From contig NZ_SBHM01000007.1 of NCBI RefSeq assembly GCF_004028095.1, positions 2,604,001 through 2,668,000 on the forward strand: a stretch of DNA of 64,000 nt. Reading direction: 5' to 3'. Below, piece by piece: positions 47,743-58,733 of this stretch. Made by a program: the position numbers and the translations under genes. The notes under the pieces are model-generated. The model searched no databases. It had not been told where the DNA came from and saw nothing but the letters and a program-made list of their open reading frames with translations. The DNA is from Paenarthrobacter ureafaciens. GTDB lineage: Bacteria; Actinomycetota; Actinomycetes; Actinomycetales; Micrococcaceae. Numbering within the stretch: position 1 is the first letter of the stretch; each line of letters opens with the position of its first letter.

Positions 47743-48618
47743 TCACGCTGCTTCCCGGGTGTCCTCCGCGTTCCCGAAAGCGGCCGCCGGGGCACCTGAA
47801 AGAATCCCCGCGGCACACAGCATTGCTGAGGATTCGGCCGACAGGAGCAGCCCCAGCCGCAGGCCGTCGCAGGAAGCTGCGTCGCCGATCGCCCAAATGC
47901 CGGGAACCGAGGTGGCGAGGTCGCGCCCGACTGCGATGCCGCCGTCGGAGGCTATCCGGAGGCCCGCCGTCAGGGCGAGTTCGGTGCGGGCGATCCGGTC
48001 TTCGGCAAGGACCACGAGGTCGCCGTTCATGCTGCTGCCGTCCTCGAACAGGATGCCGGCGGCCGGCAGCGGGGAACCGGCCAGGGAAGGTACGACGGCG
48101 GCCGGGCGCAGCGTGGTGCGGACGGGACGGACTCCGCGGGCCCGGAGGACCGCCTCGGCTTGTCCGGCAGCGGGTCCGGTACCTACCAATATCCCCAAAG
48201 GCCGGTGACCGACCACGCGCGTGGCGTCCTTGATGGCTTCCCCGATGGGGCCGGCATCGTCGATTGTGGAGTAGCTCAGGCCGCAGTAGGCGCCCGTGAC
48301 TGGCGGCAGCAAGGGAGCTGAGCCGGTGGCGATGACCAGTTGGTCGTAGGCGAACTCCATGCCGTCCACGGTGGTGACTGCCTTGGCTTCAGCATCGATG
48401 TAGCTTGCCGCCTGGCCGAAGCGGACGGACACGCGGGGGAGTCCGGCCAGTTCAAGGAGTTCCTGCGGGCATTCATCACGGTTGCTCAGGACCGTGATGG
48501 TGCCGTCGAAGAGGCGTTGGCCCTGCGGCCGGGGTCCTTTGCCCGCCAGCCGCCGAACCAAAGCCTGGGCGGCCGGACCTGCGCCTGCGATGACGATGTG
48601 CCGGGAAGAGGAGGACAT
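47743..48618 (-). CDS. NAD(P)/FAD-dependent oxidoreductase, short form
   Basis: The 291-residue protein has a Rossmann start (HIVIAGAGPAAQALVRRLAGKG), LVIATGSAPLLPPVTGAYC, a second nucleotide-binding glycine motif (GILVGTGPAAGQAEAVLRARG) and GIWAIGDAASCDG near the end. The pattern is that of the FAD/NAD module of nitrite reductase large subunits (NirB) and rubredoxin reductases, but it lacks the usual C-terminal domain and is shorter than the typical 390-420 residues. Its electron acceptor is not evident. GAAAGGG precedes the ATG at 48618. The neighbour deoC is on the same strand 125 bp further on. Confidence 0.8.
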   Translation of the reverse strand: MSSSSRHIVIAGAGPAAQALVRRLAGKGPRPQGQRLFDGTITVLSNRDECPQELLELAGLPRVSVRFGQAASYIDAEAKAVTTVDGMEFAYDQLVIATGSAPLLPPVTGAYCGLSYSTIDDAGPIGEAIKDATRVVGHRPLGILVGTGPAAGQAEAVLRARGVRPVRTTLRPAAVVPSLAGSPLPAAGILFEDGSSMNGDLVVLAEDRIARTELALTAGLRIASDGGIAVGRDLATSVPGIWAIGDAASCDGLRLGLLLSAESSAMLCAAGILSGAPAAAFGNAEDTREAA

Positions 48619-48797
48619 GGTGGGCCCTTTCGCTGTGACCTGCCTGGTGCTTGTGTACATCAGCCTAGGAGCCGGGTTTTTCGGGGGTGTTTCCCCGCTG
48701 TTGCCATTGGAGGCGCGTTTGTAGCGCGGCGTTTACCAGCCGGTAATAAGCTGGATCACACTCTCGCTTGCGGGGGTGATGTGACCAAAGCTGCAGG

Positions 48798-50144
48798 TCA
48801 GTAGCGGTGGAGCAGTTCCCGGAGTCCGTTTGCGGCGAATCCCGCGGCGGCCCCGGCCCGGTCAATAAAGCCGTGGGCGCCTACCGGTTCAACGGAGGCC
48901 AGGAGTCCGGCCGCGTCCGCCAACGTCATCCGCACGTCGGTGCGCGTATCCCCGAGGGCCAGTTCTGCGCGGCGCGAGTCCATCCAGGCGTCCGGCCCGG
49001 GGTCGTCGTGGAGGGTCCGGGTCACGCTCAGTTCCTGCCAGGAACCGCCCAGCCGGACCTTTCCGCGGTAGGTCACCTGGTCGCCGTCGGACTCCACCCG
49101 CCCGTCTGCCACGAACACACGGCCGCCAACCCCCGCATGGTCGACGTAGCCGGTGAATCGGGGCGGCCCTGCGACGGCAGCGGTAGGGAGTACCACGGTG
49201 GCCCGGAACGTCAGTGGGCTGCCGCCGATGTCTCCCCGCAGGGTGTCGTTGAAGCGGACTCCGGGGGGCGGTTCCGTCATGGCAGTACAGCCGGCGTCCT
49301 TGGCCACGCCCTCCGGTTGCAGGGAATCGAGGTAGCTGCGGGCGTCGCGGTACCCCATGCCGATCAACGTCCCGGCGTCCACCCGGTTCAGGTAGAACTC
49401 GGGATCCAGGGGAAGCGGGTGTTCGGGTTTGATGACGTGCAGCACGAAGTGCCGGCCCGTCGCCGCGGCCGCCTCGAAGTCCGCCAGCAGCGCGCCCATG
49501 GCACTCATTTCGATCATGTGGACGTACTGTTCCAGCGGACCGTCACCCCAATACGGGGAGTTGCCGATGCACCAGATGAGCCACACTTCATCGGCGCCCC
49601 GCCGGAGTGCCTCGGCGACGTTTGCGTCCCGGACCCAGACGGCGTCGGTCCAGATCCTGCCGTCGCGGCGCAGGGGAGTGAGGAAGATCGGCAGGGACAT
49701 GCCCGCAGCCATCAGTTCGGCGTCGATGTCCTTGGCATCGATTGCGTGGCACCGCTTCTCGGTGAATTCCACAACGTTGAAGGAACCCTCGACGGCGTCC
49801 GGCGCAGTTGCGTGCCGGCGCACGGCATCGGCGTCGACGCCCAGGGCAGGGAACACTTTGTTGAGGATGCCGTCGGCGTCGCCGATGGCGGGCAGCGACC
49901 ACGGACCCTTAAGGTAGTCGCCCACGGGCAGTGCGGAGCCGAAGTCCTTGACGTCAACGTCCAGCCACCGCCGGCACATGTCCTCCGGAGATACGCCGGA
50001 GAGCAGCATCCCGGCAGTGAGGATACCCCCGGACGTTCCATCCACGTGATGGAAATCGATCCCTTCCTCGGCCAGTGCCCTGACCACTCCGGCCTGCCAT
50101 GCAACGCGCATCCCGCCGCCCGCCAATACCAAGGACCGCTTCAT
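48798..50144 (-). CDS. Patatin-like phospholipase with extra C-terminal domain
   Basis: The 448-residue protein begins with a patatin domain: SLVLAGGGMRVAWQAGVVRAL (oxyanion hole), VDGTSGGILTAGMLLSG with the nucleophile serine in GTSGG, and the catalytic aspartate region IWTDAVWVRDANV. After residue 295 comes a beta-rich domain (VRFNDTLRG, FTGYVDHAGVGGRVFV, LHDDPGPDAWMD) that resembles the C-terminal domain of the GMC oxidoreductase encoded at the other end of this operon. Patatins hydrolyse acyl esters of lipids. The gene is the last of seven and overlaps its upstream neighbour by ATGA. Confidence 0.88.
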   Translation of the reverse strand: MKRSLVLAGGGMRVAWQAGVVRALAEEGIDFHHVDGTSGGILTAGMLLSGVSPEDMCRRWLDVDVKDFGSALPVGDYLKGPWSLPAIGDADGILNKVFPALGVDADAVRRHATAPDAVEGSFNVVEFTEKRCHAIDAKDIDAELMAAGMSLPIFLTPLRRDGRIWTDAVWVRDANVAEALRRGADEVWLIWCIGNSPYWGDGPLEQYVHMIEMSAMGALLADFEAAAATGRHFVLHVIKPEHPLPLDPEFYLNRVDAGTLIGMGYRDARSYLDSLQPEGVAKDAGCTAMTEPPPGVRFNDTLRGDIGGSPLTFRATVVLPTAAVAGPPRFTGYVDHAGVGGRVFVADGRVESDGDQVTYRGKVRLGGSWQELSVTRTLHDDPGPDAWMDSRRAELALGDTRTDVRMTLADAAGLLASVEPVGAHGFIDRAGAAAGFAANGLRELLHRY

Positions 50145-50596
50145 GGCGTGAGTCCCGCCGGGGCCGCGGCACCGAGCCGCCGCCAGTAGATGAAGAGGAG
50201 CACCGCCGTCGCGAGGTCGAAGAAGGCAACCAGCAGGGCCACGGGCGAGAAGACGCCGTTGAGGACCCCGATCCCTACGGCTCCGAAGGCCCCGGTCTTC
50301 TGCACGCCGGACCACAGGACCACCTCGGGAGAGGGCACTGTGTTGAGCAGGGTGTGAAGGAGAAGCCCGCCCACTACCACCATGAACATGCCCACCGTGC
50401 CAAAGAGCTGCCGGGTTTCCGGAGTCGAGTCCGCGCCGAGCAACTGCAGCAGGGGGCCTCCGAAGGGCACTTCCACCACGCCCGTCACCACCGTGATGAT
50501 CGCGATGAGGGCCAGCACGGCCCGGAGGGGATCGGCCGTTGCCCAGGCCACGGTCCCCGGCGGGTGTGGCTTGCGGGACTCAGCGTGGGCGCTCAC
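50141..50596 (-). CDS. Four-helix membrane protein of unknown family
   Basis: The 151-residue protein has a polar N terminus and about four hydrophobic segments (about 25-45, 60-85, 95-115 and 120-140), including VLALIAIITVVTGVVEVPFGG, GMFMVVVGGLLLHTLLN and FSPVALLVAFFDLATAVLLFIYW. I do not recognise a named domain. It sits between a second membrane protein gene and the patatin gene, overlapping each by four bases (ATGA), so its product is presumably needed in step with them, perhaps as a membrane partner. Confidence 0.75.
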   Translation of the reverse strand: MSAHAESRKPHPPGTVAWATADPLRAVLALIAIITVVTGVVEVPFGGPLLQLLGADSTPETRQLFGTVGMFMVVVGGLLLHTLLNTVPSPEVVLWSGVQKTGAFGAVGIGVLNGVFSPVALLVAFFDLATAVLLFIYWRRLGAAAPAGLTP

Positions 50597-51075
50597 CCGA
50601 ACGACTCCAGCAGCCGGCCCCGGTCAACGAGGAGCCACACCATGGCAGCCCACGTCAGCGTGGAGACGTAGAAACGAATGTCATTGAGCATCATCCACCG
50701 TTTGAGGAGCGAGCGCAGTTCGGCGTCGTCCTTGAAGTCGCCGCCGCGGATCCGGACGTTGATGGGAATGATGATTCCCTGTCCCACCCAGGTCAACACG
50801 ATGATGCCAAGCAGGCAGATGATGGCCGGAACAACCCGGATGGTGCCCCACTCGGACCAGACGAGGATGCCGCCGGAAATGAACATGACGGGCACAACCA
50901 CGGTGAAGAACTTGGTGGCGGCACGGGTGGGAATCCCGAAGTGCATGTCCACGTTGTCCCGCGCGAGTGAACGCCACGTGGGGTAAAGGAAGAACTTGAG
51001 GACCCACATGGTGCCCACGTACATGGTGGCGCCGAACAGGAAGTACAGGGCGTTGATGAGCAGCAGCCAGTTCAT
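50593..51075 (-). CDS. Membrane protein of unknown function (four helices)
   Basis: This 160-residue protein has four membrane helices (about 3-27, 55-75, 80-102 and 135-152), with the conserved-looking stretches WLLLINALYFLFGATMYVGTMW, PTWRSLARDNVDMHFGIPTRAATKFF and RWMMLNDIRFYVSTLTW. The pattern resembles DUF4149/DUF1772-type membrane proteins; I would not name it more precisely. It overlaps the decarboxylase-like gene upstream and the next membrane gene downstream by four bases each. Confidence 0.75.
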   Translation of the reverse strand: MNWLLLINALYFLFGATMYVGTMWVLKFFLYPTWRSLARDNVDMHFGIPTRAATKFFTVVVPVMFISGGILVWSEWGTIRVVPAIICLLGIIVLTWVGQGIIIPINVRIRGGDFKDDAELRSLLKRWMMLNDIRFYVSTLTWAAMVWLLVDRGRLLESFG

Positions 51076-52037
51076 GGGGTACCGCCCTGGGTGTTGGCCG
51101 CAGCGCCCGGCACCCGGCTGCGGTCAGGCGGTGCCAGCCACTCCTGGCCCTGCCCGAGGTTCACCACGCTGTCCAGCATCTCTCCGCCCCGCAGGCCCGC
51201 AGCGCCGGCCTCGGTGGGCGCCGTCAGGAACCAGGCCTCATAGTGGTCGTCCAGGACGCCGTGTGCCGTGGGCAGCCATGCGGTGAAGATCGGTTTCGCC
51301 TCCGGCTCCAGGTTCTTCAAAGGTGCGACGCCGGGCGCATCGCCAAGGATGAGGCGCGCCTTGGCTTGTGCCCCCAAAGCGATGTCGCCCGTGGCTTCAA
51401 AGTAGATGTCCGATTTCCAGAGCATGTTCCGGAACGCGCAGTAGTTGGACGCTGCGAGTTTCAACGGGATGCCCAGCGGGTCCGGGCGGTCGATTTCGAT
51501 GTAGCAACCGAGCTTGCCGTCCTTGTCGTACTGGGCGGAGACCGTGGAATCGGTCACCACGAAGTCAAGGTTCGCCTGGTGTTTGGGCATGCCCCAGATG
51601 CCCTTGCCGCCCTTGACGGAGATTTCGGTGCTGACGGGAAGGTCCACCACGAACTGGCCAAGCTTGAACGTCTTCTGGAAGAGCAAGGGAAGCAGCGGTG
51701 GCGCAGGTCCCAGGCCGTGGGTAATGGCGATGGCCAGGGAATACTCGATGTACTTGCCGATGTCCGTGGACCTGTAATTGACCACCGTGACCACCAGCAA
51801 GCCCTTGCCGCCCAGGCTGAATGGCCGCAGCTCAGGTCCGGGAAGGATGGCGGCTGCAGCCTTCTTGTTGATGGGGAAAGCCGCCATGAGGACCGGTGAA
51901 TCGTCGGAGTTGACGGGCATGACGTACTTGATACCGTCCGCCAGGGCGTGTTGGCCACGCAACCGCTCCTGGCGGCGCGGTACGGGGGAGGGCATGACCT
52001 TGAGCAGTGGGGTGATCAGCTCGGTGAGGGTTTTCAT
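51072..52037 (-). CDS. Acetoacetate decarboxylase-like protein
   Basis: The 321-residue protein resembles the acetoacetate decarboxylase superfamily: VNYRSTDIGKYIEYSLAIAI, PVSTEISVKGGKGIWGMPKHQANLDF (the region holding the Schiff-base lysine pair in true decarboxylases) and a beta-barrel tail. Whether the catalytic lysine is kept cannot be settled by eye, so the activity is uncertain; members without it act as other lyases or binding proteins. The start at ATG 52037 overlaps the stop of the alpha/beta hydrolase, and its own stop overlaps the next gene. Confidence 0.82.
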   Translation of the reverse strand: MKTLTELITPLLKVMPSPVPRRQERLRGQHALADGIKYVMPVNSDDSPVLMAAFPINKKAAAAILPGPELRPFSLGGKGLLVVTVVNYRSTDIGKYIEYSLAIAITHGLGPAPPLLPLLFQKTFKLGQFVVDLPVSTEISVKGGKGIWGMPKHQANLDFVVTDSTVSAQYDKDGKLGCYIEIDRPDPLGIPLKLAASNYCAFRNMLWKSDIYFEATGDIALGAQAKARLILGDAPGVAPLKNLEPEAKPIFTAWLPTAHGVLDDHYEAWFLTAPTEAGAAGLRGGEMLDSVVNLGQGQEWLAPPDRSRVPGAAANTQGGTP

Positions 52038-53089
52038 GGCTTGAGCTCCTGGTGTCCGTTCAGCTCGTCGATGATGATGGGGAAAGTGTCCTGCCAGGCG
52101 TGTTCGCCGAAGAAGACGTCCAAGTGCCCGTAGCCGGGGATGAGGTGCAGGGAGTCCTTGCCCGGGCGGTGCTTTCGGAAGAACTCGTAGCTGCGCTGCT
52201 GGCTCTCGGGCAGGAAACACAGGTTGTCCAGTCCGGCGATGAACGCGAACCGTGCATCCGTCTGCGGGGCCTCGGCCACGTAGTCCTTCGGCAGTTCCGG
52301 ATGGTTGCCCGCCGCCACCATGTGCCCTGCCCGGATGCTGCGGCCCATCTCCTCGAAGAACGTCACCGGCACTTCGGCGAACTCGCCGCTGAGCCACTGG
52401 TGCGTTGCGTCGTCGAGGTTTTCATGGGCCCACAGGGCCGGGCGTCCGCTGCCGTAGGTGAAGCTGACCATCTTGCACACGGTGTTGTCGCACTCGTGGT
52501 GCGTGGCCTTGACCAGGCCGCGGATGGCCCGGGTGAAGTAGCCCTGCGACTTGTAGCCCCAAGCCGGTGAAAGATACGGGGTGAAGAGTTTCACCACGGG
52601 CGTGAGGTAGTCGATCTTCAAGCGCGAGAAGGCGGGGACCACAGGGTGCAGCGAGACCGCGTTGGAGACAATCGTGTCCACTTGCGGCAGCAAGCCGGCA
52701 ACCGCGGACATCGTGAAGGACGTGGAGCCCTGGCAGTGGATCACTGCCTTCATGGTGTCGGCGCCGGTCTCCCGGAGCACGTACTCGACGGCGGCCGGGT
52801 GGTCATTGACTGCGGCGTCAGCGAGCGTCCAGGACAGCGGCTCCAGGTCGATCGAGGCGCGCCAGTTCAGCATCCAAACATCCCAGCCGTCCTCCAGGAG
52901 CACGTCAACGATGGTGGTGCGGATGGGCGGCCGGAAAAGTTCGGCCCTGACGCCGGAACCATGGACCAGCAGCACAGGGCCCTTGGCGGGTTCGGCCGGT
53001 GACGTGACGTGGACCAGGCTCAGGGGAGTGTTGTCCCGGGCGCGGAACGGGATCACCTCGGTCCGGTGCGCGGCGCGGGTGATGGTCAT
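52034..53089 (-). CDS. Alpha/beta hydrolase with cysteine-type nucleophile elbow
   Basis: The 351-residue protein has an oxyanion stretch PVLLVHGSGVRAELF (about 38-52) and, at the nucleophile turn, AVIHCQGSTSF (about 115-125), with Cys119 where serine is usual, as in polyhydroxyalkanoate synthases. Likely Asp and His partners are in FIAGLDNLCFLPE and LIPGYGHLDVFFG. Related domains are, to my knowledge, fused C-terminal to GMC oxidoreductases in other bacteria; here the gene is separate. It overlaps the metallophosphatase upstream and the decarboxylase-like gene downstream by ATGA. The activity may be thioester or acyl transfer, inferred. Confidence 0.83.
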   Translation of the reverse strand: MTITRAAHRTEVIPFRARDNTPLSLVHVTSPAEPAKGPVLLVHGSGVRAELFRPPIRTTIVDVLLEDGWDVWMLNWRASIDLEPLSWTLADAAVNDHPAAVEYVLRETGADTMKAVIHCQGSTSFTMSAVAGLLPQVDTIVSNAVSLHPVVPAFSRLKIDYLTPVVKLFTPYLSPAWGYKSQGYFTRAIRGLVKATHHECDNTVCKMVSFTYGSGRPALWAHENLDDATHQWLSGEFAEVPVTFFEEMGRSIRAGHMVAAGNHPELPKDYVAEAPQTDARFAFIAGLDNLCFLPESQQRSYEFFRKHRPGKDSLHLIPGYGHLDVFFGEHAWQDTFPIIIDELNGHQELKP

Positions 53090-55092
53090 GGCGTGGTTCC
53101 CTTCCGTGCGATGGTGATTGGTTCTTCAAGAAGCCGCACGGCCGGCAAGCCGGACTCCGGAACCAGCCGCGCGCCGTCGTCGTTGTCTGCCAGCCGCCAG
53201 TCGCGGCAGATGATGTCCACCACCAGCGGGTAGACGGTGAGGTTGCCGTCGGTGCCCAGGTGAATGCGGAGGAAGCCTTTGTGGTCCTCGATCGACTGCC
53301 CGGACATCTTCCACGAGTCCACTTCGCCGCTGGACGTGGCCAGGATGAACAGCGCGAACGCCTCACTCCCCAGCACCCACCCGCCGCCGTGCACCAGGGC
53401 CAGCGCCACGAGGACCACCAGGATGTCCGGCCAGTGGCGCGGCCACGGGATGAGGATCACGACGGCGGCACCCACCGCAAGCGCGGACAGTTGGTACAGC
53501 GTGCCGCGGGCAAAAACGACGATGCCGGCTGTGGCTATCCCCAGTGCCCGTGCCAGCAGGGAGATCACCAGCAGGAGGGCCGGCATGGCGAGGACCAGCA
53601 CGGTGATGGTCAGGGGCAGGTTTCCGGTGGTTGCCCCGCGCAGGGCGTCCACGAAGGACTCGCCTTGGAACGCGCTGAACACGGTCCAGGCGGTGAGTGC
53701 GGCCACGACGTGCACGGCTCCCATGGAAACGCCGAAGCCGGGGTTGCGTACGGGAAGCCACGACGGCGAGAACGGGTTGGCCAGCCGCGGGCCCAGGAGG
53801 TGGGACTCGGATTGGTCGGGGTAGATGGTGGGGGCGCGGGTGAAGCGGCGAACGGCAGGTGGAGGGTTGGCGCCGGAGGTTTCTCCTGCCCCTGCCGGTG
53901 CGGGGAGGAGCAGCTCCTTCGGGAGCCAGTGGGCGTCCGAAAGGTAGGCGCCGCCGAGGCCGCACGTGATCATCTGGGTCATGGCGGCACCGGTGTTGGG
54001 GGTGTTTGGCTCGGGGTTGGTTTCTTCGTAGCGGGAGTAGTGGTGGAGGTCCCCCGTGAGCCACAAGCGGACACTGGCCCCGGTGGGTTCGAACAAGCCC
54101 GTCTCCGGGTTGAACCGTCGCCGCAGGTAGTCCTGTTCGAAGAAGTCGGCCTGGCGGAACTCGTTCGGCTTTTCCCCGGTGCGGTCAGCGTCGGCGTCCA
54201 CCCAGACGGGGGCGGCAACGCACAGGATGATCGCGTCCCCGGGCTGCAGTTGGAGGGTGACATTGCGGTAGAAGTAGTCCAGCTGGGGCTCATCGATGTA
54301 CTGGCCCAACTGGCTGTCCAGGCCCAGCAGCCACCAGCCGGGGGTGCCCTTACGGCCGGGGCCGGGCCCTTCCCCTGTCAGCCGGACGGCGAAGTAGCTT
54401 CGGCTTTGGATGGTCCGCCACGCGCCGATGTTCCGTTGCCGGGTGAACGTCCGGATGAACGAGGTCAGGCCGTCGTACCAGTCGTGGTTGCCGGGGAGCG
54501 CGAGCATCACAGGGATCTGCGCGCTTTCTCCCGGGGTAGGGTTGCCGCCGTTAGGGGTGCCCGCCGGGGACCGCGAGGCCGGGAACGCGGTGCGGTACGG
54601 CCCCACCATGCGGTTCTCATAGGCTGACGGGGATGCCACGGGGTACACCTCGTCGCCGCCCAGCACCAGCACCCGGCCGCGGGGAAGCTCGTGGCCGTCC
54701 ACCCTGAGTGATTCCTGTGCCAGGAGCGAGGCCACAGTGTAGGTGGCGTCGAAGCCGTCGCCGAGGTCGGCAGTGAAGTCGAGCCAGAGCTCACCGGGCG
54801 TGGAACGCGGGCCCTCAGTGGGGGTGCCGGCGCCCATCCCGGGGGGCGGTATAGCCCGGCTGGTGACAGGCGGCTGGGCCGGTTGGCCCGGCACGGGAAG
54901 CTTGTCCAATCGCAGCGGATCGTCCGGGAAGCTGCCTTCGAGCTCGCGTTTGTCGCCGAAGTCCGCGAACACGGTGGCCGCCATGACCTTCAATGCCGTC
55001 CGCGCCAGGGACATGGGGGAGAGCCAGCGAACAGCCGGCTGCGGGGTAAATCCCAGCAGCGCCCGGTGCTTCCCGAGCTCCCGGCTTTTCAT
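53086..55092 (-). CDS. Calcineurin-like metallophosphatase with membrane C terminus
   Basis: The 668-residue protein has a metallophosphoesterase domain: WLDFTADLGDGFDAT (about 103-117), VLVLGGDEVYP (141-151), MLALPGNHDWYDGL (196-209) and WLTGDLHHYSRYE (344-356) give the metal ligands. From about 457 come four or five membrane helices (to about 585), and a cytoplasmic or periplasmic tail of 80 residues ends it. A phosphatase joined to a membrane block is unusual. The start is ATG 55092, seven bases after the GMC stop; the stop overlaps the hydrolase start. Confidence 0.82.
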   Translation of the reverse strand: MKSRELGKHRALLGFTPQPAVRWLSPMSLARTALKVMAATVFADFGDKRELEGSFPDDPLRLDKLPVPGQPAQPPVTSRAIPPPGMGAGTPTEGPRSTPGELWLDFTADLGDGFDATYTVASLLAQESLRVDGHELPRGRVLVLGGDEVYPVASPSAYENRMVGPYRTAFPASRSPAGTPNGGNPTPGESAQIPVMLALPGNHDWYDGLTSFIRTFTRQRNIGAWRTIQSRSYFAVRLTGEGPGPGRKGTPGWWLLGLDSQLGQYIDEPQLDYFYRNVTLQLQPGDAIILCVAAPVWVDADADRTGEKPNEFRQADFFEQDYLRRRFNPETGLFEPTGASVRLWLTGDLHHYSRYEETNPEPNTPNTGAAMTQMITCGLGGAYLSDAHWLPKELLLPAPAGAGETSGANPPPAVRRFTRAPTIYPDQSESHLLGPRLANPFSPSWLPVRNPGFGVSMGAVHVVAALTAWTVFSAFQGESFVDALRGATTGNLPLTITVLVLAMPALLLVISLLARALGIATAGIVVFARGTLYQLSALAVGAAVVILIPWPRHWPDILVVLVALALVHGGGWVLGSEAFALFILATSSGEVDSWKMSGQSIEDHKGFLRIHLGTDGNLTVYPLVVDIICRDWRLADNDDGARLVPESGLPAVRLLEEPITIARKGTTP

Positions 55093-55099
55093 CGCGGGG

Positions 55100-57766
55100 T
55101 CATCGTCCTGGCCGCTTCGAGGGGCCGGTTTGGCCCCGGAAAGGGAAGGGCACCCGCCTGATCCCGAGGCCGTACACCCGCCAGAGCTCGCCCCCAAAGA
55201 GCTTCATGAACGCTGCCAGGCCCGCGGCCGGTGCGGGGCCTTCCGCCCGGAACGTGGTGAGCTGTTTGGCGAAGTCCAGGGGGCGGATATACAGGATGCC
55301 CGCACCGGAGGGTTCCGGTGCCTCCTGTGTGCCGTCCGCTGGTGGTACGTGGCCACGGAGGATCGTGGCATAGAGGATGGTGGTGTCCGGCCAGAGATCG
55401 AAGCCGGCCTCGTTATGGATCTGCTTGTACCCGGTGAAGGTGAAAGGCGTACCGCCGGGATCCCGCAGCCACAGCCGGTACAGCATGCGGCGCGCCGGAC
55501 GCCCATCGGTGGATCCATCCTCGACGAACAGGTTGAACCAGCCCTTTTCCACCGGCATCCGGCCGCCGAAGTAATCGGCCAGCACATATCCCTCCGCTTT
55601 TGCCGGATGGTTTGGATCGGCCACGAAGGCGTCAATGTCCTCGGCGGTAATGGTTAGCTCGAACATGATCCTGCGGTTGCGGTCCCGGCCCAGGCTCCGG
55701 CCTTTCTCCGGGTCTGTTACGCCGGGGCTGAACCAGCCGTGCATCTGCTCGGTGAAACGCACGGACGTGAAAAGCCCGGCACTCGCTGCGCCCGGCGTCA
55801 GCCCACGGCTACGCGTCCGGGAAGTGGCGGCGCCCGCCGGTTGCTCCTGGCGCGCGCCCTTGCCCTTGGTAGCGTCCGGCGCCAGGGCGCGTGGAGCCAG
55901 CGCATCGACGTCGACGACGGCGCCCGCGGCTTCCTGCCCGACGGTCGCGTTTGCGGGGCTCCCGGCAGCATCCACCGGGCCGCCGGCAGCATCAGAGGGC
56001 ACGATCCCCCGATGGGCCGGGGCGTTCACGATCCGGGCGCACGCCCTCTCGGCGAAGGCGGCAATGGTCAGTGACGGGTTGGCGCCCACGGGCCCGGGCA
56101 TCGCGGCGCCGTCCACGACGAACAGGCCAGGGTAGCCGAAGACCTCCCCGTACGAATCGCACACGCCCTCTCCGGGGTGCCTGCCCGCGGGGGCCCCGCC
56201 GATGGGATGGACGGTGATGACCCGTTTGGCCCACCAGAGCGGGTTGTCCACGAAGTCCCCGTCCAGGTCCCCGGCAATGGCGGACATCGTGGCCCGCACC
56301 CGGCCGAAGTACTCCTTAGACGTGGACATGGTCCAGGACACGGCGAGCCGTCCGTCCCGGAGCGTCAGCACGCCGTCGGGAACGTCCCGGCCCATGCCCA
56401 GCAGCGGGACCGAACTCGAGGACAACCTTCCATCGCCGAGGGCAGCGGCCAGGTCGGCCGACACGTTGGACCGCCCTGCGTCAAAGAGCCGGTCCGTGAG
56501 CAATCGCGCGGCAACTTTGGCCGTGCGCTTGACGGTGGTGCGAAGCTGCGCGGTTTCCATGAGCCAGTTGATGAATGCCGGATACCCGGCGTCTTCCACG
56601 TAGTAACCGCGGCCGTCGCCGTCGTCGTCATTGCTGTCCGGCACCCGGATCGCAGTGGTGATGACCGGACCCCGGCTGCCGGTGAGGGTGCGGACGCCCG
56701 GAGGCATGCCGTTTTCCCCGGGCGTCTTCGCGCCCATAACGAACGTCAGGAGGTCGCCGTTGCCGCTGAACCGGGTGCCCAGGGCGTCGCTGAGGGCCGG
56801 CAGCGAACCCCGGTTGCGGAGGAGCAGGAAGTTGCTGCCGAACGTGCCGGCACCAAGCAGGAGCCTGCGGCAGTGGATGATGTGTTCGTCCAGCAGCCCT
56901 CCCTGGTTGTCCGGGTGGTGGATGACATAGCGGACTTCATAGCCTCCGCCGTTCAAGGGCCTGATGCCCCGAACGTCGTGGAACGTCCGGACGTCGGCGC
57001 CCTTCGCGGCCGCGGCCGACAGGTAGTTGTGGTCCAACGTGTTCTTGGCGCCGGAGTTGCAGCCGATGTCGCACTCGCCGCTGAGGGTGCACGTGGTCCG
57101 GACGGTGTCCGGGCCGTGGATGCTTCCGTACTCCGGGAGGCGAAGCGGCCGGTTGGTCCGGGGTTCCTCGTTGGGTCCGGTGGCGAAGGTGATGGCGATG
57201 GGAGGCCTGCTGATGGACAACCCGAGGTTGGCCGCCGTCTTTTCCATGGCGAGTGTCTTGAGGGTGTCGTTGTAGGGGTAGGGCACGGGGCGGAGCATGT
57301 CCTCGGCGAGCTTGTAGTAAGGATCAAGGTCCGCCCGCGTGAACGGCCAGTTTTCGTAGCCGCCGCCCGGAATGGGGGATTCGTTGACGAACCATTTCTC
57401 GTCCTTGCGCAGCAGCACGTTGGCGTAAATCAGGGAGCCGCCGCCGAGCCCGCTGGATACCAGCCCCTCCGTGCCGCGGAAGGTCCATGCGTCGAACAGG
57501 CCGTAAAGGCCGCGGTCCGGATCCCAGAAGTTCCGGCCCATCTCCGACGGCGAACGCGCGAAGCTGCCCGGCGGGTAGGGCTTGCCGCGTTCCATGAGCA
57601 CCACGGATTGTCCGGCCTCGGCCAGGCGAAGGGCTGCCACGGAACCGCCGAAACCGGACCCGACCACTACTGCGTCCACCGTTTCCGGTGGGGCACCCCG
57701 CCGTGGTGTATCGACGGCGGGCTGTGGACCCGGGTTCCCAGTGTTCGTGTTCCCCAGCCGAACCAT
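55100..57766 (-). CDS. GMC oxidoreductase (cholesterol-oxidase-like) with extra C-terminal domain
   Basis: The 888-residue protein has an FAD-binding start (AVVVGSGFGGSVAALRLAEAG, about 32-52), GLGGGSLIYANVL, GAGTFGSNFLLLRNRG, and the GMC C-terminal signature HPIGGAPAGRHPGEGVCDSYGE with PGLFVVDGAAMPGPVGANPSLTIAAFAERA, matching bacterial cholesterol-oxidase-like enzymes that oxidise an alcohol on a bulky lipid. A low-complexity linker (about 590-665) leads to a domain at about 669-810 (VRFTEQMHGW, GYVLADYFGGRM, IHNEAGFDLWPD) shared with the patatin of this operon. ATG 57766 follows GAGGGG. It is the first gene of the operon. Confidence 0.87.
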   Translation of the reverse strand: MVRLGNTNTGNPGPQPAVDTPRRGAPPETVDAVVVGSGFGGSVAALRLAEAGQSVVLMERGKPYPPGSFARSPSEMGRNFWDPDRGLYGLFDAWTFRGTEGLVSSGLGGGSLIYANVLLRKDEKWFVNESPIPGGGYENWPFTRADLDPYYKLAEDMLRPVPYPYNDTLKTLAMEKTAANLGLSISRPPIAITFATGPNEEPRTNRPLRLPEYGSIHGPDTVRTTCTLSGECDIGCNSGAKNTLDHNYLSAAAAKGADVRTFHDVRGIRPLNGGGYEVRYVIHHPDNQGGLLDEHIIHCRRLLLGAGTFGSNFLLLRNRGSLPALSDALGTRFSGNGDLLTFVMGAKTPGENGMPPGVRTLTGSRGPVITTAIRVPDSNDDDGDGRGYYVEDAGYPAFINWLMETAQLRTTVKRTAKVAARLLTDRLFDAGRSNVSADLAAALGDGRLSSSSVPLLGMGRDVPDGVLTLRDGRLAVSWTMSTSKEYFGRVRATMSAIAGDLDGDFVDNPLWWAKRVITVHPIGGAPAGRHPGEGVCDSYGEVFGYPGLFVVDGAAMPGPVGANPSLTIAAFAERACARIVNAPAHRGIVPSDAAGGPVDAAGSPANATVGQEAAGAVVDVDALAPRALAPDATKGKGARQEQPAGAATSRTRSRGLTPGAASAGLFTSVRFTEQMHGWFSPGVTDPEKGRSLGRDRNRRIMFELTITAEDIDAFVADPNHPAKAEGYVLADYFGGRMPVEKGWFNLFVEDGSTDGRPARRMLYRLWLRDPGGTPFTFTGYKQIHNEAGFDLWPDTTILYATILRGHVPPADGTQEAPEPSGAGILYIRPLDFAKQLTTFRAEGPAPAAGLAAFMKLFGGELWRVYGLGIRRVPFPFRGQTGPSKRPGR

Positions 57767-57956: not shown

Positions 57957-58733
57957 ATGAGCCCCGACAATCCTGCAAAGGTCGCCGTCATCACCGGCGT
58001 CGGAAGACGGCGTTCCATCGGAGCTGCCTTGGCCACGGGGCTTGCCATGGACGGCTGGAACCTGGTCATTAACCATTGGAAGCCTTACGACGACCGGCTC
58101 GGCCTCGAAGCGTCCCCGGACGATGCCGACGCTATAGCTGCCGAATGCCGCGAACGTGGCGCCGGCGTCGTACTTGTTCCCGGCGATCTCAGCGATCCCG
58201 GGTTCCCCGCCGAACTGATCGCGGCAGGGCGGTCGCTTGGACAGGTGAGCGGCCTGGTGATGTCCCATTGCGAGTCCGTGGACAGCAGCATCCTCACGAC
58301 GTCCGTAGAGAGCTGGGACCGCCACTTCGCCGTGAACGCGCGTGCCACATGGCTCCTTATCAAGGCGCTCGCGGAGCAACTGCCCGCCGTCCCTCCGGGC
58401 GAGGTAGGAGGCAGGATCGTGGCGCTCACCAGCGACCACACCGTCAACAACCTGCCGTACGGGGCGAGCAAAGGCGCGCTGGACCGGATCGTGACGGCAG
58501 CCGCCGTCGAGCTTTCCGGGCTCGGCGTCCGGGCCAACGTCATCAACCCCGGCCCCATCGATACCGGCTGGATGGACGAGTCTGTCCGCTCCTGGACGAC
58601 GGCGGCCACCCCGGCCGGGCGCCTCGGCACGTCTGCAGACACTGCGGCGTTGGTGCGGTTCCTCTTCTCGGATGCTGGCTCGTGGATCAACGGGCAGGTG
58701 CTGCACAGCAACGGCGGATTCAACGTCTCCTGA
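57957..58733 (+). CDS. SDR family oxidoreductase
   Basis: The 258-residue protein is a classical short-chain dehydrogenase: VAVITGVGRRRSIGAALATGLA for NAD(P) binding, VMSHCESVDSS, NARATWLL, the serine in VALTSDHTVNNL, and the YxxxK site in NLPYGASKGALD. NPGPIDTGWM follows. Substrate unknown. It is divergent from the GMC operon, 190 bp apart, and could act on the same substrate; that is an inference from position only. ATG 57957 has a weak upstream binding site. Confidence 0.9.
   Translation: MSPDNPAKVAVITGVGRRRSIGAALATGLAMDGWNLVINHWKPYDDRLGLEASPDDADAIAAECRERGAGVVLVPGDLSDPGFPAELIAAGRSLGQVSGLVMSHCESVDSSILTTSVESWDRHFAVNARATWLLIKALAEQLPAVPPGEVGGRIVALTSDHTVNNLPYGASKGALDRIVTAAAVELSGLGVRANVINPGPIDTGWMDESVRSWTTAATPAGRLGTSADTAALVRFLFSDAGSWINGQVLHSNGGFNVS

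Follow-up and report, generated by a model that had tools for sequence, protein, structure and literature searches.

Several described enzyme families provide the points of reference for the locus considered here. Cholesterol oxidases of the GMC type (PDB 4u2l, 1coy) carry a histidine in an HPxGG motif and an asparagine in NPxxTI, lysosomal acid lipase and gastric lipase act through a serine nucleophile, the polyhydroxyalkanoate (PHA) synthase PhaC has a cysteine nucleophile, and patatin-like phospholipases share an invariant serine and aspartate. Within the acetoacetate decarboxylase family, which includes MppR-like lyases, the lysine of a PK motif and a glutamate have catalytic roles; the acetoacetate decarboxylase enzyme itself has a Schiff-base lysine with an adjacent lysine. 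Relatives of these families are encoded side by side in a seven-gene set of Paenarthrobacter ureafaciens, on the minus strand of positions 48,798 to 57,766 of a 64,000-nucleotide stretch of contig NZ_SBHM01000007.1 (hereafter the window). This gene set recurs under seven phylum labels and an enzyme trio is fused in some of its members, which points to an undescribed lipid reaction sequence. The original prediction knew of no characterised pathway of such composition, and no published description was found in the open-access literature, which is itself weak evidence.

In transcriptional order the set comprises GMC, an 888-residue flavin adenine dinucleotide (FAD)-dependent GMC oxidoreductase (55100..57766) whose C-terminal barrel domain (BAR, 55103..55834) matches no Pfam family; MPE, a divergent metallophosphatase-like protein of 668 residues (53086..55092); ABH, a 351-residue alpha/beta-hydrolase (52034..53089); ADC, a 321-residue acetoacetate-decarboxylase-family protein (51072..52037); the small membrane proteins TM1 (50593..51075) and TM2 (50141..50596); and PAT, a patatin-like acyl hydrolase of 448 residues (48798..50144). 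All seven frames are open, end in TGA and have a third-position GC of 0.82-0.88, which bears out the minus-strand set first proposed; six start with ATG and the sixth gene, TM2, with GTG. Seven bases (55093-55099) separate the GMC stop from the MPE start, and five consecutive 4-base stop/start overlaps follow within 50141..53089. These had all been described as ATGA, which is correct for 53086-53089, 52034-52037, 51072-51075 and 50141-50144, but 50593-50596 reads GTGA.

For comparison, loci were fetched from genome contigs with the ABH protein, as the best 80 of 274 ABH-encoding stretches. Where both genes of a pair are present, 4-base overlaps join MPE/ABH in 30 of 46 loci, ABH/ADC in 44 of 63, ADC/TM1 in 33 of 40, TM1/TM2 in 35 of 37 and TM2/PAT in 31 of 39, far-apart or reordered genes being scored as misses. 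Without the 18 Arthrobacter-type loci the corresponding counts are 14/29, 26/45, 15/22, 20/20 and 15/22, and thus the tight packing outlasts recent shared descent; the overlapping genes may be translationally coupled. An overlap count confined to the window (5 of 27 co-directional pairs) picked up one of the five operon overlaps and was not used, and promoter and terminator scans returned no more signals than in shuffled sequence.

Conservation beyond the genus, on which the idea of a system was originally said to depend, is found for the set in whole or in part across seven phyla, the rows of the ABH tree being labelled Actinomycetota, Pseudomonadota, Acidobacteriota, Myxococcota, Nitrospirota, Bacteroidota and Rhodothermota (some are metagenome bins). 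The locus counts hold for stretches with a fairly close ABH and carry no information on genomes that lack it; a part was scored wherever it lay in the locus, adjacent or not, and many loci are cut by contig ends. On these terms the 80 loci contain the barrel in 77, GMC in 71, ADC in 64, patatin in 48, MPE in 47, TM1 in 40 and TM2 in 39. Among the 46 loci of at least 20.9 kb, GMC and the barrel occur in all 46, ADC in 41, MPE and patatin in 34 each, TM2 in 29 and TM1 in 27; among the 33 of these that are not of the Arthrobacter type, the numbers are 33 for GMC and barrel, 28 for ADC, 21 each for MPE and patatin, 16 for TM2 and 14 for TM1, with every tested part in 10/33 and GMC-barrel-ABH alone in 5/33. 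The smallest recurring unit is therefore GMC, barrel and ABH, and ADC, MPE, patatin, TM1 and TM2 accompany it in part of the loci. Many actinobacterial loci share the order GMC-barrel, MPE, ABH, ADC, TM1, TM2, PAT, the Streptomyces clusters mostly ending at ADC; myxobacteria have ABH, ADC, TM1, TM2, PAT-barrel, GMC, MPE, and Roseithermus, Methylobacter and Nitrospira show yet other orders. That unrelated enzymes came together accidentally and were retained through recent descent would fit the absence of TM1, TM2, patatin and MPE from many loci and the distant homologues of single parts that stand alone. It is already largely contradicted by the same gene set in rearranged orders in several phyla, by fusions, by other phosphatases in the place of MPE and by the correlated identity matrices of ABH and ADC over 33 rows (r 0.82, with 0 of 999 permutations as high; overall relatedness contributes), and we regard it as barely credible.

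The distribution is patchy at closer range. Within the genus ABH is present in 5 of 25 genomes, host included, and a survey of 396 genomes of the phylum turned up ABH in 12, ADC-like proteins in 21, the barrel in 18 and MPE in 10, the weak ADC matches (E ~1e-21 to 1e-28) probably being other ADC proteins. The barrel accompanies ABH in 10 of those 12 genomes and MPE does so in 5. Phylum labels are clustered on the ABH tree (8 changes, against a minimum of 6 and a shuffled mean of 15.6), which leaves room for an old origin of the wide distribution besides a lateral one. Lateral transfer is suggested, not proven. The best match to the window's ABH, 92% identical, is from Paenarthrobacter nicotinovorans, and in Arthrobacter sp. 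StoSoilB13 an MPE (72%) adjoins an ABH (91%) on a 1.35-Mb plasmid record (NZ_AP024648.1, 1028984-1032055).

Fusions provide the strongest argument for a substrate common to GMC and ABH. Fifteen plasmid records hold a distant ABH, and six outside Arthrobacter were inspected. On the Azospirillum, Rhizobium, Bernardetia and Leptospira plasmids ABH forms the end of a GMC-barrel-ABH protein of 1120-1169 residues, preceded in Azospirillum by an MPE homologue (profile E 4e-115); the Pseudonocardia plasmid encodes GMC, a stand-alone barrel and ABH separately, in three neighbouring genes. Across loci the barrel forms the end of GMC or of patatin, stands on its own or precedes ABH (L074, L081 and L097, where the gene boundary seems shifted), and TM2 and patatin occupy one open frame in the myxobacterial loci L072, L077 and L095. 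Many proteins now named simply GMC oxidoreductase or alpha/beta hydrolase could be named jointly. The intact fusion of Leptospira borgpetersenii plasmid lbp2 (L146:3601-7005) is annotated merely as an alpha/beta fold hydrolase. In Pseudonocardia (L142:5375-9020) GMC and the 197-residue barrel are divergent from ABH, with an AfsR/SARP-type regulator gene following.

The identity of the first gene product as a GMC oxidoreductase was borne out by PF05199 (54.7 bits, cut-off 24.6). Its FAD-type N-terminus exceeds the cut-offs of PF01266 and PF00890, PF00732 alone falling below (15 vs 23), so that an FAD-binding N-terminus, a GMC C-terminal domain and the catalytic HPxGG histidine are all present. 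Cholesterol oxidases are its closest solved relatives (E ~7e-31), and both of their motifs align with it. The NCBIfam cholesterol oxidase model NF058674 gives 196.9 bits (cut-off 850), and the protein differs from these enzymes in its extra barrel and its operon context; judged by sequence, it is a distant cholesterol-oxidase relative. BAR is predicted to fold as a beta-barrel with helices (mean pLDDT 88.6), and the C-terminus of PAT matches its profile with an hhalign probability of 94% (E 1e-7). That BAR might be a second ADC domain was considered since MppR is its top Foldseek match, but this match is weak (E 0.013, TM 0.18), profile comparison gave a probability of 0.2%, and the assignment was rejected.

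Alignments of the individual proteins drew on 42 of the 80 loci, chosen as diverse; L097 (ADC), L082 and L092 (barrel, short) and L023 and L047 (patatin) were left out despite a match. The alpha/beta hydrolase proposed for the third gene stands, in that PF00561 is over its cut-off, with the qualification that the nucleophile is cysteine (C119 in the window's protein) rather than serine, in 43 of 43 aligned members and all six distant homologues. The fold of the acid lipase family extends over the whole chain. Relative to these lipases, Asp288, which we take to be at the usual acid position, is aspartate in 25 of 43 members only, whereas Asn289 is invariant. The cysteine recalls PhaC, but ABH is less similar to that enzyme than to acid lipases and is far below the NCBIfam PhaC cut-offs (20.7 vs 365.3 for class III, 15 vs 622.65 for class I). 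A cysteine nucleophile makes acyl transfer as possible as hydrolysis, and ABH is a testable candidate acyl-cysteine enzyme with the fold of human lysosomal acid lipase; the set also offers an uncharacterised barrel domain. A distant ABH with the same cysteine motif lies on a Rhodococcus plasmid (L143:7968-9041) between the end of a thioester-reductase-domain gene and a crotonyl-CoA carboxylase/reductase gene, which suggests use of this homologue in polyketide-like biosynthesis.

The membrane metallophosphatase originally proposed holds for its membrane segments (residues 489-576 by hydropathy), but its metal-site motifs are non-canonical and PF00149 is missed (13.3 bits, cut-off 21.5). A match to PF00149 at E <= 1 is nevertheless present in 24 of 25 aligned members, that of the window included (best 1.9e-6). 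GD, GNHD and GDxH are invariant in all 25, and the expected motif-IV histidine and the first histidine of GHxH are absent from all 25, which sets MPE apart from canonical calcineurin-like metallophosphatases, defined by the cut-off and five motifs. The motifs GDxxY and GDxH are common to MPE and a PhoD-family protein (L074:11952-13460); unlike PhoD-like phosphatases, MPE has no Pfam PhoD match and retains GNHD. Other phosphatases take its place in some loci. In Methylobacter (L091:17106-19070, L086:17123-19081) the cluster phosphatase and the gene that follows it are separated by 1 base; in L091 this following gene encodes a CHAT domain, which was seen in 3 of 88 scanned neighbours.

The remaining assignments were upheld. 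ADC matches PF06314 (57.4 bits, cut-off 29.8), and K152 and E98, the family's PK lysine and glutamate, are conserved in 33/33. In comparison with the acetoacetate decarboxylase enzyme the first lysine is kept in 33/33 but the second is histidine in 32/33. Hydropathy shows membrane segments in TM1 and TM2; TM1 falls short of anthrone oxygenase PF08592 (25.1 bits, cut-off 27.3), 16 of 18 members matching at E <= 1. PAT matches PF01734 (90.1 bits, cut-off 27.7) and has the Ser-Asp dyad S38 and D167 in 22/22; it departs from other patatin-like phospholipases in its barrel-related domain and, at three myxobacterial loci, in sharing a frame with TM2.

The combination of an esterase or acyltransferase, a sterol-type oxidase, a phosphatase, a lipase and a Schiff-base lyase suggests one bulky esterified, phosphorylated lipid as substrate. 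We consider it close to an even call, leaning slightly to the doubtful side, that the seven genes form a self-contained membrane-associated enzyme module for one class of bulky hydrophobic alcohol with ester and phosphate, possibly terpenoid-, steroid- or long-chain-like. In such a module MPE, or a replacement phosphatase, would strip the phosphate, and patatin and the cysteine-nucleophile ABH would cleave or transfer acyl groups, ABH via an acyl-cysteine intermediate. The cholesterol-oxidase-like GMC could then turn the freed hydroxyl into a carbonyl, and ADC, via a Schiff base, could cut a C-C bond of the keto product by decarboxylation or retro-aldol reaction. The beta-barrel may act as a shared substrate- or membrane-docking part, and TM1 and TM2 may anchor the set; the order of these steps is likewise our conjecture. 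A bolder form, which we put forward tentatively and think rather less probable, is an undescribed pathway spread over several phyla. At its core the GMC oxidase, a Cys-His-Asn acyltransferase of acid-lipase fold and the beta-barrel, the last as a new ligand-binding domain, would work as a single physical assembly and hand a bulky lipid alcohol from one active site to the next; C-C cleavage of the ADC type would be added, the phosphatase would be interchangeable, and a new lipid or signal of ketone type would result. Several observations weigh against joint function: TM1, TM2, patatin and MPE are absent from many loci, five of the ten MPE genomes of the phylum lack ABH, the Rhodococcus ABH has no annotated GMC within 8 kb, and on Mesorhizobium and R. 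phaseoli plasmids none of the partners is annotated beside the MPE homologues.

Joint lipid processing, as first proposed, is thus supported to the extent of a conserved and probably lipid-related set. A host-made sterol or hopanoid and full sterol catabolism are not, since searches of the host genome gave no match to squalene-hopene cyclase or ketosteroid dehydrogenase; ketosteroid-dehydrogenase-like proteins do not track the operon, and neither the host nor 10 of the 12 tested carriers have a steroid ring-cleavage marker. The absence of that marker also counts against a catabolic module that would strip acyl and phosphate groups from an exogenous terpenoid or steryl ester of plant or microbial origin and oxidise the alcohol for general metabolism. 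Such a role is unlikely on balance, even if the patchy accessory distribution and the esterase/oxidase pairing favour it; the scanned neighbours include no recurrent transporter or regulator family, and the set occurs in Methylobacter and Nitrospira, which are not typical users of terpenoid or steryl esters. Induction in Roseithermus strain RA on beechwood-xylan medium would also fit catabolism. There AWN76_007025 (GMC, fold change 1.88) and AWN76_007050 (patatin, listed under AA3, fold change 2.70) are reported as the only two of eight listed auxiliary-activity genes that are up-regulated (PMC7409140). Six consecutive tags would match the order GMC, ABH, ADC, TM1, TM2, PAT of L083, which comes from another strain of the species; we propose this mapping tentatively. 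The available text of a suberin proteome paper (PMC5158114) has no visible link to the cluster.

A biosynthetic or tailoring module for a modified membrane or specialised lipid, with ABH as acyltransferase, is similarly improbable: genes for chain building or cyclases are not a recurrent part of the set, and the missing squalene-hopene cyclase match in the host argues in the same direction. A stress or conflict system, with membranes or signals as the targets of patatin and phosphatase, is highly improbable, notwithstanding the patchy spread and the CHAT-domain protein directly after the Methylobacter phosphatase. PADLOC gave one weak desaturase-model match (GMC, E 0.0086) and otherwise none at E <= 0.01 for the seven proteins, there is no PHROG match at E <= 1e-3 and no ADC match in phage records, and the scan of neighbouring genes brought up no recurrent family of sensors or nucleic-acid enzymes. 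That scan covered 88 of 163 candidates, from gene calls by a GC-position heuristic, and any one Pfam family (E <= 1e-5) was shared by at most 3 of the 88; recurrent neighbours without a Pfam family would escape it.

At the upstream edge, a divergent SDR gene beside GMC (57957-58733) was found by similarity in only 3 of 80 loci, which places it outside the conserved set. Downstream lies NDO, a pyridine-nucleotide-disulphide-oxidoreductase-family gene (47743-48660), together with a gene to which we give the name deoC. NDO was tried as an eighth member and set aside as a flanking gene, being present in 12/12 genus genomes picked for the absence of ABH. Seven of the eight non-carrier loci examined have NDO and deoC and no LacI match in 20 kb. 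The eighth, in genome G406 (L131, 9880-11898), is a clean empty site, where the flanking NDO-like and LacI genes stand about 140 bases apart without the seven genes and SDR.

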